From the IMG/VR virus record IMGVR_UViG_3300031712_000018, positions 1 to 20,338 of that record: 20,338 nucleotides of DNA. One strand, given 5' to 3'. This document shows, piece after piece, positions 3,206-12,153 of this stretch; position 1 is the first letter of the stretch, and every line of letters starts with the position of its first letter. A program made the position numbers and the translations under genes. The DNA comes from a virus. A model generated the notes under the pieces. That model had not been told where the DNA came from, made no database searches, and worked only from the letters and a program-made list of their open reading frames with translations.

Positions 3206-3520
3206 TTAATTTGCTCTCTCATTAATGCCTTTGTTGATACTTTCCGCGATTTCCTGATGTTGCTTAATAAAAACATTTATCTTTTTAAAAAATTCGTCTC
3301 TAATTTTATTAAAATTTTCTAGGTCGCCAGAAAATGCCATGATCCCCAAGCCATTCAAAGAATCGACCAAATTTAAAATATGCAGTAAGAAACATTGATA
3401 ATGCTCTAACTCCAACATATTGCATAAGGAATAATTTGCCAGAACTGATGCACGTTTGAATTGATCCATTTTTTCTTCGTCGCTTAAGTCTGATATGTCC
3501 ATGTATCTGGTTTGTATCAT
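3206..3520 (-). CDS. Hypothetical helical protein (104 aa)
   Basis: A TAGGAAA site lies six to seven bases before the ATG. The protein is almost all helical: an acidic start (DISDLSDEEKM), a central stretch rich in Leu and Cys (ANYSLCNMLELEHYQCFLLHILNLVDSL), and a polar, charged C-terminal helix. It could form a helical bundle or dimer. I do not recognise it. It lies downstream of a GNRA hairpin and leads the chain of overlapping micro-genes. Confidence 0.65.
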   Translation of the reverse strand: MIQTRYMDISDLSDEEKMDQFKRASVLANYSLCNMLELEHYQCFLLHILNLVDSLNGLGIMAFSGDLENFNKIRDEFFKKINVFIKQHQEIAESINKGINERAN

Positions 3521-3532
3521 TTATATTTCCTA

Positions 3533-3554
3533 GTTAAGCCCCTTGCGGGGCGTT
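3533..3554 (-). repeat. Intercistronic GNRA-loop hairpin, copy 1
   Basis: In the leftward transcript this reads as GCCCC-GCAA-GGGGC: a five-GC-pair stem with a GNRA tetraloop. It lies between the stop of the 82-residue gene (5 bases away) and the start of the 104-residue gene (about 17 bases from the stem). Over 22 bases it matches copy 2 at 3819-3840 at all but one position. No T-run follows, so it is not an ordinary terminator. It may set mRNA stability or processing. Confidence 0.7.
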
Positions 3555-3556
3555 AT

Positions 3557-3805
3557 TTATAATTCTCGTACTGTAAAATTATCCCAATTACACATCTCGC
3601 ATTCTTCTACAATATTTTCTGGGTTTAGATAATCAGTATTTGTTATTTCCCATCTTACCTCATACTTATTATCGTCATTATCTACTGCTGTTGCATAATA
3701 AGCGGATTCTTCATTATTTTTTTTATCTATATAGGGATTTTGTGTCATCATTATCATAATGCCTTCATGTTCCAACATTCCAAAATCATCTGCATTTTGT
3801 GTCAT
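3557..3805 (-). CDS. Hypothetical acidic protein (82 aa)
   Basis: The protein is acidic, rich in Asn, Asp, Glu and Tyr. It starts with a Met-rich stretch (EHEGIMIMMTQNP), then has alternating hydrophobic residues suggesting beta strands (SAYYATAV, KYEVRWEIT), and ends with CEMCNWDNFTVREL. The first ATG has an AAGG site 8-10 bases upstream; an internal ATG is possible but has no better site. It follows DUF932 in the operon behind hairpin copy 2. Small acidic proteins are often DNA mimics or inhibitors in phages, but nothing here proves that. Confidence 0.6.
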   Translation of the reverse strand: MTQNADDFGMLEHEGIMIMMTQNPYIDKKNNEESAYYATAVDNDDNKYEVRWEITNTDYLNPENIVEECEMCNWDNFTVREL

Positions 3806-3818
3806 GTTCTTGCCTTTC

Positions 3819-3840
3819 GTTATGCCCCTTGCGGGGCGTT
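3819..3840 (-). repeat. Intercistronic GNRA-loop hairpin, copy 2
   Basis: This is the same GC-rich hairpin as copy 1, seven bases after the DUF932 stop and about 18 bases before the next start. Both copies have the same order (stop, hairpin, ribosome site, start), which suggests a functional unit or a duplicated spacer rather than chance. Confidence 0.7.
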
Positions 3841-3844
3841 TATA

Positions 3845-4669
3845 TTATCGTTTCAATTCAGCCATTTTTTCAGCTAACGTCCAGAGTGCGCGATTCAATG
3901 CTGTACTTTGGTCAATGCTCTTTACTTCGCGGGTAGTTACTCTGCGCACTCGGTTGTTTGCGTCTCTGCCCCAACCCGACAAACCACCCTTAATCAAATT
4001 CTCTTGCGCAATGTTAAACGTAGTAAACAAATCGTGTTTATCGTTTTCTTGATAACGGCGCGGACGCAGAATTTTTAAGGGTTCAATCGCTTGAGATTGG
4101 TTATTTTCTCCACCGTCAAATTTCAATTGATGCGCTGCTTCTGCAAATATGCGTTTTTCATCTGAATTTAAAACTATATCCGTCATGGTTTGTGCTGAAT
4201 CAATCAATAAAGCGGATTCTTTCATGACCTCATAGGTTCCCTCAATCACTTTGCCAACAATGTCGCCTTGGTGACGGACGCGTGTTTCGTTGTAAGTATT
4301 ACCAGCAATCAATCCATTACTGCAAACCATGCGATACACGCCCGCCATTAAACGATAAGAACTAAGGCCATCATGGGAGTTAATCAAAACTAATTCGGGG
4401 TACAGGCCGTTATGGTTAGCTTGTGCGTCAACGTGACGAAAACGCATCATGTGTTTTGTATATGCTCTTTTTGCCTGAATTCTTGTACGACATTGTGTCG
4501 CCCAAACTGGCATAAATCCTTCACCCATTAAGCCTTCCACAACCTTTAATGTCGAAATATGCTGGTACTTATGGCTAGTGCGTTCCGAGCTATCAGCAGT
4601 GAAAATGCTTGGCGCTTTAACTCTTAATTGGTCGATTGATAATGTTTGATGTTGTGTTAATGATTGCAT
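3845..4669 (-). CDS. DUF932 (phage/plasmid-like) protein (274 aa)
   Basis: The protein fits the DUF932 family (the phage/plasmid-like protein family), found in many phages and plasmids and of unknown biochemical role. Recognisable parts are the N-terminal segment around SSERTSHKYQHISTLKVVEGL, the stretch with PVWATQCRTR and AKRAYTKHMMRFRH, the core ELVLINSHDGLSSYRLMAGVYR with MVCSNGLIAG, and a C-terminal region with NLIKGGLSGWGRDANNR and RALWTLAEKMAEL. The length suits family members. A clear AGGAG stands nine bases before the ATG. It is the largest gene of the leftward operon. Family members are usually carried as accessory genes, which agrees with its position between lysis and packaging modules. 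Confidence 0.9.
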   Translation of the reverse strand: MQSLTQHQTLSIDQLRVKAPSIFTADSSERTSHKYQHISTLKVVEGLMGEGFMPVWATQCRTRIQAKRAYTKHMMRFRHVDAQANHNGLYPELVLINSHDGLSSYRLMAGVYRMVCSNGLIAGNTYNETRVRHQGDIVGKVIEGTYEVMKESALLIDSAQTMTDIVLNSDEKRIFAEAAHQLKFDGGENNQSQAIEPLKILRPRRYQENDKHDLFTTFNIAQENLIKGGLSGWGRDANNRVRRVTTREVKSIDQSTALNRALWTLAEKMAELKR

Positions 4670-7221: not shown

Positions 7222-9309
7222 ATGCCAAGACGCGACCCCAAGTTATGTGCAAAGTTTCGTAGCCATGTTGAGAACTGGCGCAAATATTTTAGAGATAATA
7301 TCCAGCAGTATCATGACTACCAGCGTTTTGTATTGGGTTCGCAATGGGAAGATGACGAAGAAAACCTATTGCACAATTACAATAAAATACCTTTGCAGTT
7401 TAATAAGCTCGCGCCTTTAATGAATCACTTGCTTGGCGAACAAATGATGAATACGCCTAACCTTGAAGTGACGCCGGATAATGACGTGATACCGGAAGAA
7501 ACAGTAGCAGTACGTCAGGCGTTAGTTAAAGAAATCTCGCTAGATTCTAACGCTAAAATGGTTTATCAGCTTGCATTCCAACAAGCAGCTATTGGTGGCT
7601 TTGGTGCATATCGCATTGGCTTAGATTATCTCAATAACAAAACATTCAATCAGCACCCAACAGTAGTTCCGTTTCGTGACCCAACGCGTTGCTTTTGGGA
7701 CGTGGGCGCCGAAACACCCTGCAAAACAGATAGTTTACATTCTGGATTTTATGCGCGGATGTCGCGTGCTTTATTCCGCAAAATGTATGGCATTAAGGTC
7801 GAATCATCTATTCCCCCGACTGTGATGGAAACAGAGGAAGATAGCTATGCAAGTTTTGAATGGAATAGTAACGAGCTAGTCACAATTGGTGAAGTGTATG
7901 TGAGAAAGTTTGTTAAAACGAATCTCTATGAATTAAGTAATGGCGAAGCGATAGAGGAAAAAGAGTTTAACGAACTAGAAAGCTATACGATGCCACTTGC
8001 TGAAGGTGAAGAAGGAGAACCGAAAGAATACTTAGTTCATAATGGCGAACTGGTGACAATCACACGCAAACGCCCAATTACTTCATACAAAATCAAGCAT
8101 TACAAATGGGCTGGCGACTATATTCTTGACGAAACAGATTTCCCGAGCCAGCAAACCCCGCTCATTTTCGTTGATCAGAATTCCTATTGGGACAAAACAG
8201 GCAAACAGATTTGCAGACCATTTGTAAAAGATGCGCGAGACGCACAACGATTTGTAAACTATCTTGGCACACAAATTGCTTATCTAATTAAGATTTCACG
8301 CTACGATCAGTACATGGCTTCACGCGAAAATATGAAGTCACCGAAAACACAATTGTTATGGCGCAATCCTACGGTTGTACAAGGCGTGTTAGTTTATGAC
8401 GTTGATAAAATCCACGGATCAAAACCAGAACCCTTGAATCCGCCATTGTTACCACCAACATTGATTCAGCAATACGAAAGAGCGTTAGCAGACATACAAA
8501 CAAGTACAGGCATTTATGATACAAAAGTGGGCGAACAAGGCAACGAAATATCTGGCGCAGCAATTGACGCCCGAACCAAACAAGGTGCTTATAATACTTT
8601 TATTATTTTTAATTCACTTAATCGCGCTGTGGCCGTGGGTGGAGAAATTATTAACGAAATAATTCCGCACGTGATAGATACAGAACGTAAAATGACGTTA
8701 GACATGCCGAATAAAGGCAAGCAAGCGGTAGTATTGAATCAACAAGCCGATGTTTACGGTTCAGCTATGCTTAATGACATGACCCAAGGTGATTTCAAGA
8801 TTCGATTATTGCCAGGCGCAAGTTACGAAGGTCAAAAAGCCGAAGGATTACAAGCATTGCAGCTTATTCTCCAAGCCAATCCAGAACTATTTACGCTCAT
8901 TGCTGATCTATATGCTAAAAACTTACCGCTTGCTGATTCAACAGAGCTTGTTAATCGTTTACGAACTATTGTACCGCCTGAAATTATTGAAGCCGGTAAA
9001 ACAGGTAAGCCAGTACCACCAAAACCACAAGCGCCTGATCCTGCTATCATGGTGAAGCTGCAAGAATTGGAATACAAGAAACAAGCATTGCAACAGAAAG
9101 CACAAAAAGATGGCTTAGACTATCAAGCAGAATTACAACAGATTGAAAACCAGAAACTCGAAATTGCCGGACAAGTGCAAGAGCAAATATTGCGTTATCA
9201 AGCCGAAACACACCGTGCCGATACAGATGCGCAAATTGCCCACGCGCAAAACATTGTGGAATTGCTCACACGTCCCAACCATGTAAACCAACCTGTTAAA
9301 CAAACTTAA
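7222..9309 (+). CDS. P22-type portal protein (695 aa)
   Basis: The portal is the dodecameric ring at one head vertex through which DNA enters and leaves and on which the tail is built. Length (P22 gp1 has 725 residues) and sequence fit the P22 portal family: an N-terminal helix with KYFRDNIQQYHDYQRFVLGSQW, then PLQFNKLAPLMNHLLGEQ, VPFRDPTRCFWDVGA and, in the crown and stem region, GNEISGAAIDARTKQGAYNTFIIFNSLNRA. Residues about 610-690 are a long Gln-, Lys- and Ala-rich helix that would form the C-terminal barrel. AAAAGGA precedes the ATG. Forty-nine bases separate it from terL and twelve from the scaffold gene, in the standard order. Confidence 0.93.
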   Translation: MPRRDPKLCAKFRSHVENWRKYFRDNIQQYHDYQRFVLGSQWEDDEENLLHNYNKIPLQFNKLAPLMNHLLGEQMMNTPNLEVTPDNDVIPEETVAVRQALVKEISLDSNAKMVYQLAFQQAAIGGFGAYRIGLDYLNNKTFNQHPTVVPFRDPTRCFWDVGAETPCKTDSLHSGFYARMSRALFRKMYGIKVESSIPPTVMETEEDSYASFEWNSNELVTIGEVYVRKFVKTNLYELSNGEAIEEKEFNELESYTMPLAEGEEGEPKEYLVHNGELVTITRKRPITSYKIKHYKWAGDYILDETDFPSQQTPLIFVDQNSYWDKTGKQICRPFVKDARDAQRFVNYLGTQIAYLIKISRYDQYMASRENMKSPKTQLLWRNPTVVQGVLVYDVDKIHGSKPEPLNPPLLPPTLIQQYERALADIQTSTGIYDTKVGEQGNEISGAAIDARTKQGAYNTFIIFNSLNRAVAVGGEIINEIIPHVIDTERKMTLDMPNKGKQAVVLNQQADVYGSAMLNDMTQGDFKIRLLPGASYEGQKAEGLQALQLILQANPELFTLIADLYAKNLPLADSTELVNRLRTIVPPEIIEAGKTGKPVPPKPQAPDPAIMVKLQELEYKKQALQQKAQKDGLDYQAELQQIENQKLEIAGQVQEQILRYQAETHRADTDAQIAHAQNIVELLTRPNHVNQPVKQT

Positions 9310-9321
9310 GGAAATACAATC

Positions 9322-10257
9322 ATGCCAGCGATAACACCGAATAATGTTGATGACATATTAGTAATGGGAACGCCTATGCCGGCGCCAGAAGTTGATAACC
9401 AGGCGCCAGTGGAAACGGCAGATACTAATGACGATACTCCACAATATGACGATGCGGATATTAAAGAACTCAAAGCAGATAATGTTGAGCAACCAGAGCA
9501 GAAAGTAGGTGAACCTGAAGATGAAGTTAATCCGTATGTAGACGAACAAAAGGAAGAAGCACAATCAGAAGTAAAAGCCGAAGCGCCAGCCGTTGACGAA
9601 TATGGCAACGAAACAGCAAAGCCTCGCATGTACTCTGAGGAAGATGTTCAGCGCATGATTCGTGATCGATTGTCGCGTGGTTCGGTTGCGCAGCAGCAAT
9701 CAGCGCAACAAACTCAGCAAGTGCAACAAGCTGCTAAGGATTTCCAAGCTGATCCAAACTCGCAAGATTCATGGGAAGTGCAGTTAGAAAATTTTGTTGA
9801 GAAAACATTTAACAAGATGGCTCAAAAGCAGCAGCAAGAACAAGCGCAACAGATCGAGAATCAAAGACGCGCAGAGTTTGATACTAAATTCACAACAGGA
9901 ATGAGTAAATACGGTGACTTTGTGGATGTTGTCAAAGAACGCCCGATTACTGATGCCATGCTAATGGCTACACGTTCACTTGAAAATCCTGCTGCATTTA
10001 TCTATGCTGCTGCGAAATTACAAGGTGCTGAATTAGACAGAATCTCTAAGATTAATGACCCATATCAACAAGCTGCCGAAATGGGAAGATTGGAGGAACG
10101 TATGCGCAAAAGCAAAGCAGTTACAAAAGCTCCACGTTTGGTTAAATCAGACCGTACCGATATAGTCGAGAAGCCCGACCCGAAGAAACAAGAAAATCGC
10201 AATATTGATGGATTAATTGAAAAACATGCTAGATCAAAAGTAGTTTCTCGTAGATAA
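9322..10257 (+). CDS. Scaffolding protein, P22 gp8-like (311 aa)
   Basis: Scaffold guides coat subunits into a procapsid and leaves before or during packaging. The position between portal and coat and the length (P22 gp8 has 303) support this. Residues 25-90 are acidic and Pro-rich, so disordered. MYSEEDVQRMIRDRLSRG (about 103-120) starts a helical part with Gln-rich stretches (121-145 and 168-180), followed by a helical middle. The C-terminus is basic and ends in DGLIEKHARSKVVSRR, matching the expected small basic helix-turn-helix that binds coat. AAGGAAA lies before the ATG. A strong terminator follows 29 bases after the stop, so this is the last gene of the packaging transcript. Confidence 0.88.
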   Translation: MPAITPNNVDDILVMGTPMPAPEVDNQAPVETADTNDDTPQYDDADIKELKADNVEQPEQKVGEPEDEVNPYVDEQKEEAQSEVKAEAPAVDEYGNETAKPRMYSEEDVQRMIRDRLSRGSVAQQQSAQQTQQVQQAAKDFQADPNSQDSWEVQLENFVEKTFNKMAQKQQQEQAQQIENQRRAEFDTKFTTGMSKYGDFVDVVKERPITDAMLMATRSLENPAAFIYAAAKLQGAELDRISKINDPYQQAAEMGRLEERMRKSKAVTKAPRLVKSDRTDIVEKPDPKKQENRNIDGLIEKHARSKVVSRR

Positions 10258-10286
10258 TACGCGGGTTCACCATGTACACAATAATT

Positions 10287-10308
10287 AACCCGCGCGAGCG
10301 GGTTTTTT
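10287..10308 (+). terminator. Intrinsic terminator after the scaffold gene
   Basis: AACCCGC and GCGGGTT form a seven-pair stem around a GCGA (GNRA) loop, followed by an unbroken T-run to 10308. An upstream copy of CGCGGGTT (10260-10267) could pair with the same left arm (10287-10294) and prevent the terminator from forming, so the stop may be conditional. Confidence 0.85.
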
Positions 10309-10312
10309 ATGA

Positions 10313-10666
10313 TTAGTATTTATCTTCAATAGCTAAATGAGTACGCCATTTCTTAATTTCTTTTTCGCAATTTTTAACATATTGCCTCAATGCGCAATTT
10401 TTAGTTTGAAATAATTGATCGTCATAATAAGTTTTCTGCACTAAAACATCATTCCGTCTCTCGTGTGTTATTTCAGCACGAATCGCGACAGTATAAACCA
10501 AGTCATCAGCTTGAAATGATGATTCAATTCCAATTGAAAGGATGGTCGTATTAACAATAAAAGGCTTTTCGTTCACGTACTCCAATACAAAAATTTCTTG
10601 TCCTATATTAAATTTTGATTTGATTCTTTTTATGCCATATGGCGTATGGATATGTAGCGTTTGCAT
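10313..10666 (-). CDS. Antisense orphan gene between scaffold and coat (117 aa)
   Basis: This is the only leftward gene within the head block. The protein starts MQTLHIHTPYGIKRIKSKF, continues with several predicted strands (QEIFVLEYV, KPFIVNTTILSIGI, LVYTVAIRAEI) and ends with a charged helix (QYVKNCEKEIKKWRTHL). The N-terminal part looks like a small beta barrel with YGIKRIKSKFNIGQEIFVLE, as in SH3-like folds; I do not recognise a family. I chose the ATG at 10666, which has TGGA about six bases upstream; the frame stays open to a GTG at 10717 and has an ATG at 10687, but neither has a ribosome site. A TATACT box at 10724-10729 might serve as its -10. It looks like an independently expressed added gene (moron-like). 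Confidence 0.65.
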   Translation of the reverse strand: MQTLHIHTPYGIKRIKSKFNIGQEIFVLEYVNEKPFIVNTTILSIGIESSFQADDLVYTVAIRAEITHERRNDVLVQKTYYDDQLFQTKNCALRQYVKNCEKEIKKWRTHLAIEDKY

Positions 10667-10743
10667 GATTTTTCCAATCTTAAACATAATAGGGATGTCA
10701 AAGGTAATAAACACCACAAAAAAAGTATAGGTTTTTTACCGTC

Positions 10744-10772
10744 TTGCTATTACGTATGATATTGCTTACAAT
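10744..10772 (+). promoter_or_regulatory. Sigma-70 promoter for the coat gene
   Basis: TTGCTA (10744-10749, four of six) and TACAAT (10767-10772, five of six) are 17 bases apart. The start would be near 10779. It lies after the scaffold terminator and before the coat gene, where a separate high-output promoter is expected. Confidence 0.5.
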
Positions 10773-10902
10773 TAAATCAGATGAGTGAGAGGCAGGCATC
10801 CGTCCCCTGCAAACAAAATAGGCGTGTAATCGATCTCCGCCGGTCAATGAGAAAGAAATAGTCAACTTGATATTAACTTAAACATTTTCCGGAGACATAT
10901 AC
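10773..10902 (+). promoter_or_regulatory. Coat mRNA leader with possible structure
   Basis: About 120 bases of leader precede the coat ATG. It holds a small stem (GCAGG 10792-10796 with CCTGC 10806-10810). It also holds TCTCCG (10834-10839), which is complementary to CGGAGA (10890-10895), the coat Shine-Dalgarno. If they pair, coat translation would be hidden. No convincing gene lies here. Confidence 0.35.
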
Positions 10903-12153
10903 ATGTCACTTAATACCTTTCGTACTTCCCAGTACGTGCTTGATGAAGTATTTGTACGATTTGTGAACTACCTCAATTTTGCAAAGGTCGCGAATCGTAA
11001 CCTTGAAGAAGATTTCAAGGGCTTAAAATTCGCAACAGGTCAAACCCTTAACTATCGCTTAGAAGAAAGATATTTGCCCCAACGTGGCGCGACAGCTAAT
11101 GCACAATCACGTACTCAGGTTGTCCGTCCGTTAACGATTGATACACAATTCAATACCATGGTGCAGTTCTCAGGTATGGAATTAACATTTGATCGTGCGC
11201 GTGACCGTCCTTACTTGGATATGATGTTAAACCCACGTGCTAAAACGATGGCAAATGACGTTGAGAAGTTTATTGCTACTGAAAACTTCCAATTGCAAGT
11301 CTATCAAGCTGTCGGCACACCAGGTGTTCCCTTGGACTTTGATACCATCACCTTAGCTGATGCGTACATGACAGAACTTGGTATTCCTGAAGATGGCAAC
11401 CGATACTTTGCTAACCCACCCCGCGTGTCTGCTGGTTTAGCAAGCTCATTAAGCACCGTGTTCAACCAAACAGTTAACACTGGCGCCTTGATGGATGGCT
11501 TTATCGGTCATTTGTCCGGTTTTGATTTCTTCAAAACAAATTTCTTAATGAGACAAATCGCCGGTTTAGGTCAAGCAGGTGGCTCACCTCCAACAGGCTT
11601 TAAATTGGGTGGTCTTGTAACAAATGGCACAATCACCAGTGGTAGTACAATTTCAGTAAACAGTTTAGGTCAATCCCCAGGCGCCGTTGTATTTAAAGAA
11701 GGCGATAGCATAGAAATTGACGATGCATCAGGCGTATTCATGGTTAATCCATTGACCTATGAAGCTTTATCCCAACGCGCTCAGTTCGTTGTAACGGCTG
11801 ATGTTGTTTCGGCAAATGGTAGCACGGCTGATATTCCAGTTAGTCCGGAAATTATCATCTCAGGCGCGCGTCAAAATATCTCTGCTGGTATTCCGAATGG
11901 TGCGCAAATATTGCTAGCGCAAAGCCATAATGTATCGCTTGCTTACCATAACCAATCAGTGGTTTTCGCAGCACCTCCGATCACTGAATTAAAAGGTGGC
12001 GTGGAAGTTGTTACGACATACAGTGAATTATATAAGTTAGCCATGACTTATACTCTCGGTGCTGATATTAGAAACTACCTGCAATTAGATCGTTTAGACG
12101 TTATCGGTGGTGTGGCGATTAATCCTGAATTTGCAGTAAGGGTTAGATCGTAA
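10903..12153 (+). CDS. Major coat protein, P22 gp5-like (416 aa)
   Basis: This is the shell-forming protein. Length (P22 coat has 430) and layout fit the P22 coat family. An N-terminal helix (RTSQYVLDEVFVRFVNYLNFAKVANRNLEEDF) is followed by a glycine- and strand-rich E-loop part (TGQTLNYRLEERYLPQRG), a spine helix (PRAKTMANDVEKFIATENF) and an extra domain about residues 235-340 with KEGDSIEIDDASGVFMVNP, FVVTADVVSANGSTADIPVSPEII and ARQNISAGIPNGA. The latter matches the inserted I-domain of P22-like coats. The C-terminus is short and beta-rich. CGGAG stands eight to nine bases before the ATG. Unlike its neighbours the gene has its own promoter and terminator, which fits the need for several hundred copies per virion. 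Confidence 0.92.
   Translation: MSLNTFRTSQYVLDEVFVRFVNYLNFAKVANRNLEEDFKGLKFATGQTLNYRLEERYLPQRGATANAQSRTQVVRPLTIDTQFNTMVQFSGMELTFDRARDRPYLDMMLNPRAKTMANDVEKFIATENFQLQVYQAVGTPGVPLDFDTITLADAYMTELGIPEDGNRYFANPPRVSAGLASSLSTVFNQTVNTGALMDGFIGHLSGFDFFKTNFLMRQIAGLGQAGGSPPTGFKLGGLVTNGTITSGSTISVNSLGQSPGAVVFKEGDSIEIDDASGVFMVNPLTYEALSQRAQFVVTADVVSANGSTADIPVSPEIIISGARQNISAGIPNGAQILLAQSHNVSLAYHNQSVVFAAPPITELKGGVEVVTTYSELYKLAMTYTLGADIRNYLQLDRLDVIGGVAINPEFAVRVRS

Follow-up and report, generated by a model that had tools for sequence, protein, structure and literature searches.

The window analysed here, which is the whole of one viral record of 20,338 bases, carries between its scaffold and coat genes a leftward gene that, judged by comparison with related phages, is a patchy cargo gene in an insertion hotspot at the scaffold-coat junction. 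The head genes of tailed phages are usually regarded as a conserved, little-interrupted block. The clade of the window, P22-type podoviruses known here from uncultured contigs only and of which few show an integrase, as a whole keeps a cargo bay inside this block, directly before the shell gene and ranging from empty to almost 9 kb. A leader of twin pseudoknots ahead of the coat gene provides a testable reason for this bay and would be a compact new control element if it acts in cis. The gene founds a small protein family with a predicted fold of a known kind; alone it is of modest interest, which is raised by the hotspot within the head block and by the leader. It is probable that this is an accessory gene of the hotspot, tolerated through the coat promoter and leader, read leftward and early, dispensable and encoding a small barrel adaptor. 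The features of the junction are collected in Table 1.

Table 1 Features of the scaffold-coat junction, in positions of the window
Feature	Position	Strand	Basis
Scaffold gene, left border of the hotspot	9322-10257	+	phrog_8865, E 4.3e-9
Intrinsic terminator after scaffold	10287-10304	+	Hairpin, T-run on the rightward side
Accessory gene, 117 aa	10313-10666	-	L170, L183 and L190 have a homolog in this position and orientation
Possible N-terminal extension, GTG 10717, 134 aa	10667-10717	-	Judged less likely
TATACT, -10-like box without recognisable -35	10724-10729	-	Sequence
Coat promoter, TTGCTA, 17 nt, TACAAT	10744-10772	+	Consensus; regional promoter count not above shuffles
Pseudoknot 1, GATG/CGTC and GCAGG/CCTGC	10780-10810	+	Covariation in relatives; window copy not in the alignment
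Pseudoknot 2, GGCG/CGCC and GATC/GGTC	10821-10845	+	Covariation, window included
P22-type coat gene, right border of the hotspot	10903-12153	+	Pfam PF11651, E 2.3e-18

An antisense gene and its small family

The gene is the first, and in the window the only, gene of a leftward unit that diverges from the coat gene. Its reading frame ends at 10313 and can be opened either at an ATG at 10666, which yields 117 residues, or at a GTG at 10717, which yields 134. The ATG is the likely start because the homologs begin with MQKLT and their starts align with the MQTLH of the window protein; according to the ORF listing, L170 and L183 have no in-frame start codon upstream of the one preceding QKLT. When the 645-bp scaffold-coat gap was dinucleotide-shuffled 2000 times, 0.5% of the shuffles held an ATG-initiated frame of at least 117 codons. 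The codon score is neutral (-0.5 bits), yet the highest among the six frames, and three other non-structural ORFs of the window are neutral as well. At 31.9% the GC content lies below that of scaffold (43.1%) and coat (43.3%); 2.9% of 1000 sliding windows are as poor in GC, and a few other non-structural genes have similarly low values (30.1-33.8%). On the sequence comparison the ORF is a real coding gene, a judgement made because homologs exist and settled by them.

Relatives of the coat gene were fetched by two scans, 80 loci each, out of 190 and 276 matches, and a phmmer search of the 19,631 six-frame ORFs of the fetched coat loci returned at least three homologs of the window protein, in L183 (E 1e-12), L170 (E 1.1e-10) and L190 (E 1.1e-8), with identities to it of 28-34%. 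The protein of a further locus, L194, is the same as the L183 homolog. All three homologs are encoded by the minus strand, and going left from the coat leader each is the first leftward gene-like ORF met, with L170 listing an extra 62-aa ORF that overlaps the leader itself. An earlier, sequence-only reading of this DNA had placed a leftward gene of 117 residues between the scaffold and coat genes and had named the absence of protein homologues as grounds for abandoning it; the gene is present, and the three homologs carry it through that check. The same reading had called the family unrecognised, which stands insofar as Pfam, PHROGs, NCBIfam, PADLOC and the PDB sequences gave no match, and falls insofar as homologs do exist.

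Searches with the single ORF sequence gave nothing among viral contigs, genome contigs, phages, plasmids, PDB sequences, NCBIfam and PADLOC. No family member was found by tblastn at E 1 against 50,697 phage records, and no further member by pattern scans of viral contigs, the reach of which is limited to sequences matching the patterns. By the phage tblastn and the viral-contig pattern scans, the family is seen solely beside coat genes of this clade. L120:1390-1656(-), in another phage of the clade, is a weak candidate relative, the one match (E 0.0067) in a search of 50 out of the 118 viral loci fetched at that stage; it scores E 0.09 by phmmer and E 0.0048 with a four-member profile. It is possibly a member, and searches starting from it returned no additional one.

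Several weak matches were set aside. PriC (Pfam, E 0.013) falls below the cut-off, and phrog_2330 (E 0.083) was rejected because its model also matched in 13 of 14 control genomes. The matches to late-transcription coactivators (Pfam E 0.036, phrog_254 E 0.18) given by the homolog in L190 are non-significant and absent from the other two homologs. Neither the ORF nor the three homologs matched an HNH, GIY-YIG or LAGLIDADG endonuclease family above cut-off, the nearest match being LAGLIDADG_WhiA (E 0.11) for the L170 homolog.

The homolog is followed in L183 and L190 by leftward ORFs of 66 aa, of membrane type, and 84 aa, and in L170 by a leftward 243-aa ORF with an HNH match (phrog_7091, E 1.2e-5). 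The two further ORFs in L183 and L190, where the window has the gene alone, as well as its neutral codon score, would suit the remnant of a longer leftward cargo operon, with products of 117, 66 (membrane-type) and 84 aa, of which the first gene alone is left, drifting and with little function. This is rather unlikely, as the frame stays open from end to end and the conserved core residues are kept.

A predicted barrel fold

AlphaFold run with four sequences gives a model (pLDDT 81.8, pTM 0.69) with predicted strands at residues 3-8, 11-16, 24-31, 34-47, 56-63 and 75-81 and a helix at 89-113, in agreement with the strand-rich N-terminus and helical tail expected from the letters alone; with a single sequence AlphaFold was useless (pLDDT 40.5). 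In the PDB, Foldseek ranks chromobarrel domains highest (best E 0.015). VIA gave MRG15 a Z of 7.7 over 85 residues at 5.0 Å and MSL3 a Z of 7.4, both below 8 and hence in a range that possibly reflects just a common arrangement. The best viral fold matches are the uncharacterised phage proteins A0A6J5N0T0 (E 2.6e-4) and A0A8S5TKS6 (E 1.3e-3), which are like the window protein in predicted fold. Sequence identity to the best fold matches is 9-18%.

The protein is thus predicted, with middling certainty, to be a small SH3/chromobarrel-like barrel with a C-terminal helix, a fold of a known kind. Eukaryotic chromobarrel readers such as MSL3 and MRG15 bind histone marks, which is irrelevant to a phage protein; the likeness is one of predicted fold, while the low identity (9-18%) and the reading of histone marks set these domains apart. 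The modelled barrel suggests binding of nucleic acid or peptide and shows no function; most likely the product would act in early takeover as a small adaptor, with nucleic acid or a protein of host or phage as its ligand.

The scaffold-coat junction as an insertion hotspot

The head block lies in the middle of the window and has the P22-type order of terminase, portal, scaffold and coat. A total of 111 distinct coat loci were fetched, where distinct means that the last 400 coat bases differ and some near-copies remain; two are copies of the window, and scaffold is also shown in 89 of the 109 others. Across these 89 relatives the scaffold-coat interval ranges from 146 to 8765 bp: 25 intervals are of at most 250 bp, 18 of 251-600, 15 of 601-1500 and nine of 1501-3000 bp, and 22 exceed 3 kb. 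The relatives are metagenomic fragments, and many of the ORFs in the cargo counts below were called mechanically.

The sequence-only reading had the gene inserted between two head genes and looked to related phages without it there. This proved right for most relatives, including L005, the sister of the window on the coat tree (SH-aLRT 95, 106 rows), which has an empty site of 157 bp. On the same tree the gene family needs four changes, at least three of which are forced by well-supported branches. A shuffle test on the tree, in which 500 of 500 shuffles were as low, has no power because there are only four carriers. Because most relatives lack the gene, it would be dispensable for the clade.

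Elsewhere the interval holds Endonuclease VII, a DnaQ-like exonuclease, a C5 DNA methylase and ParE- and ParD-like proteins. A cargo ORF of at least 75 aa is present in 61 of the 78 gap loci examined, and the one nearest to coat points leftward in 39 of the 61; nine of these 39 cluster with the Endonuclease VII protein of L026, where cargo ORFs were picked mechanically and clustered by single linkage.

Individual loci add observations of their own. The ParE-like toxin and ParD-like antitoxin form a toxin-antitoxin-like pair at L072:4229-4781(-), within the scaffold-coat interval, and the cargo at L158:4680-5576(+) is a collagen-like repeat protein, whose cluster (12) occurs in five loci. In L016 (1463-1672) and L068 (1205-1415) the start of the coat gene carries a group I intron. 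Not far upstream, on the opposite strand, L016 has an ORF that belongs to the Endonuclease VII cluster and L068 one that by eye looks like GIY-YIG. Near the L068 intron there is also a match to the Rfam int-alpA RNA (L068:865-932(-), 51.7 bits, gathering 35.8), which is unexpected in a phage fragment. In the window itself three leftward ORFs lie left of terminase at 3206-4669(-), one of which matches DUF932 (E 3e-37) and also phrog_12094 (E 2.1e-87).

Transcription signals, time of expression and lysogeny

A scan of 9300-12000 listed four promoters, a number not above shuffles (mean 6.2), and five terminators, which is above shuffles (mean 2.4). None of the promoters listed in this region is on the minus strand, for which reason the TATACT box stands alone: the box that had been noted at the start side of the gene is indeed there, at 10729-10724 of the minus strand, and lacks the -35 of a promoter. 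L183 and L190 by eye share TGGYAA-17-TAAAAT upstream of the gene.

The position of the gene after a terminator, likewise noted earlier, is borne out by a hairpin whose T-run faces rightward transcription. Within 160 nt of the scaffold stop (less in short gaps) terminator-like sites occur in only seven of the 89 relatives; a post-scaffold terminator was accordingly rejected as a feature of the clade, and because of this rarity the hairpin of the window is probably part of the insert. It may have arrived with the insert and would shield the gene from scaffold transcription.

The hairpin is listed for the minus strand too, where its leftward tail, AATTATTGTG, is T-poor. Leftward read-through past 10313 would enter scaffold in antisense, and the main role of the gene could then be that of an antisense RNA against scaffold and portal mRNA. 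This is highly improbable, since the protein sequence is conserved across distant phages, which an RNA role would not need, and since in L183, L170 and L190 other ORFs follow the gene before any scaffold gene is reached.

The direction of the gene, opposite to that of the late genes, had been taken to suggest another time of expression, and this still holds; the lysogen and host immunity, to which that reading extended it, find no support. A PF00589 tyrosine integrase occurs in one of 42 records (the window and 41 of the 109 relative loci, mostly long ones chosen for their length) and in none of the three homolog-bearing records, a scan that leaves room for plasmid-like or serine-integrase prophages. 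A scan of bacterial genomes returned two relatives of the coat gene, both on short MAG contigs (13.1 and 12.5 kb). Lysogeny in this clade is therefore not supported and is doubtful, given the single integrase, its absence from the homolog carriers and the mere two short MAG contigs.

The only homolog-bearing record that was mapped, G060 (37.7 kb), has portal, scaffold, coat and the long ORFs beyond coat on one strand, as assigned by eye from the window, and the homolog with its two neighbours on the opposite strand together with Sak4-like and SSB-like proteins. Strand is a partial guide to timing, because the primase- and helicase-like genes of G060 share the strand of the head genes. Early expression appears to fit better than expression in a lysogen, since an integrase is found in one of 42 records and since in G060 the homolog shares its strand with recombination-type genes. 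It is proposed that transcription of the gene runs leftward, away from coat, and is probably early and carried out by host RNA polymerase; this orientation would avoid reading into the coat gene.

Morons, in the excerpted text of PMC2920897, lie between genes that are neighbours in related phages, differ in GC content from the remainder of the phage, have a promoter and a terminator of their own and are expressed in the lysogen while the late genes are silent. Compared with the morons of temperate phages in that excerpt, the window gene is alike in lying between adjacent genes, in its patchiness, in its differing GC and in occupying a hotspot with varied cargo (PMC2920897). Its neighbours adjoin in L005 and stand at most 250 bp apart in 25 of 89 relatives, and its GC is lower than that of both. 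For a promoter the window shows TATACT without -35, which is no complete promoter, and for a terminator a hairpin with the T-run rightward and a T-poor minus-strand tail. The carriers in the window clade look non-integrating and the family is seen in one clade only, points in which, as in the want of a complete promoter in the window, the gene is unlike the morons of that excerpt. A classical moron, expressed from the prophage and giving the lysogen immunity or another trait, is improbable: its place between adjacent head genes, low GC and absence from most relatives would all fit, but an integrase seen in a single one of 42 records and missing from the three homolog carriers that were tested, the two short MAG contigs from the bacterial scan and the want of a complete promoter of its own in the window argue against it.

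The coat leader

The two pseudoknots ahead of coat are both of H-type, stand in tandem and begin at about the expected transcription start, and in many relatives TTGACA-type promoters are seen by eye just before the same leader. They share one plan, consisting of S1 ending in G, NGUA, S2, a short pyrimidine-rich loop, S1' and S2'; pseudoknot 1 of the window has GTG in place of GTA. At a threshold of 15, a scan found pairs of knots 30-110 nt before coat in 56 of 85 loci, which include near-copies and a copy of the window, as against two pairs in 484 kb of shuffled sequence, one strand. There were 23 matches elsewhere in 1.2 Mb, some being the leaders of the window, its copy, L123 and L016, and the remainder look like chance. 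At a threshold of 13 the pair is present in 89 of 107 relative loci versus 37 of 2140 shuffled upstream regions (1.7%); several of the 18 loci with no mechanical twin call show a near version by eye and are counted as misses.

Covariation was assessed for each knot in MAFFT alignments. The pseudoknot 1 alignment takes 48 of 49 rows (L161 dropped) with a loop 1 of 4-7 nt from the 89 twin loci, the window being absent; all ten of its ten pairs have changed on both sides, and covariation reaches 0.670 versus 0.280 in shuffles (0 of 500 as high) and at most 0.160 when slid. Pseudoknot 2 was first run with 64 rows, made up of 63 of the 80 listed rows and the window, and gave 0.463 versus 0.227 shuffled and 0.180 slid. 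Among the 17 omitted rows the knot was visibly wrong in three; others had long loops or were near-copies, and some were dropped for no recorded reason. Because this choice was selective, the run was repeated with all 80 rows and the window, whereupon the effect held and was smaller: covariation 0.392 versus 0.212 shuffled (0 of 500 as high) and at most 0.162 slid. Helix 1 is 96.9% paired, with three of four pairs changed on both sides, whereas helix 2 is only 68-71% paired (68.0% with the 80 rows and the window). The number of pairs changed on both sides in pseudoknot 2 does not exceed shuffles (209 of 500 with 64 rows, 265 of 500 with 80 and the window). Rows were picked with the help of a pairing scan, so that the alignments lean towards structure, and related rows can beat shuffles without any structure; the slid controls and the effect size nevertheless make a chance origin of the covariation unlikely.

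Rfam at E 1 gave no match in the leaders of the window, L041, L071, L036, L016 and L068, a weak negative since covariance models ignore pseudoknots, and among open-licence papers, by title or start of abstract, no published description of the leader or the hotspot was found. A third helix from pseudoknot 2 to the ribosome-binding region was dropped, as at least seven pairs form in 30 of 82 loci and swapped partners reach 20.5 on average and 30 at most. By eye the leader of L170 (2160-2295) looks like three tandem knot units with a different core.

The reading that is somewhat favoured is that coat is driven by a new class of leader RNA acting in cis, as antiterminator, mRNA stabiliser or coat operator, which would free coat from scaffold transcription and so let cargo of up to nearly 9 kb land at the junction, the antisense gene being one such piece. 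A promoter recognised by consensus and a structured leader recognised by comparison would together let the spot tolerate cargo: because coat has its own promoter and leader, its link to scaffold could be broken harmlessly. This causal step, like the functions given here to the protein and the RNA, is inferred.

The gene product might instead regulate coat, its barrel binding the divergent promoter or the leader beside its own start. Four distinct members directly adjoin the coat leader and diverge from it, and the barrel resembles nucleic-acid and chromatin reader domains, but the gene is missing from most loci that have the leader, which is called in 89 of 107 relative loci as against three fetched relatives and L194 for the gene, and one carrier, L170, has an atypical leader that was missed by the scan. 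Such a regulator is unlikely.

Comparison with known systems

The twin-pseudoknot leader is reminiscent of two kinds of RNA. The HK022 put RNA is a cis-acting antiterminator whose put elements are plain stem-loops; like it, the leader places a tandem pair of structured elements at the 5' start of a phage transcript, and unlike it these elements are pseudoknots and the downstream gene is coat. ToxI-type RNAs are short pseudoknots in tandem, a likeness to the leader, which differs from them in preceding coat and in having two units.

The cultured phages VvAW1, P26218, X14, BA3 and PAE2 have the same order of terminase, portal, a gene in the scaffold position and coat; two of the five records give this pre-coat gene the name scaffold. 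A sixth fetched record carries no usable annotation at this place. Coat identity for the five is 23-27%, and they differ in a pre-coat gap of 6-29 bp, which has no room for promoter, leader or cargo.
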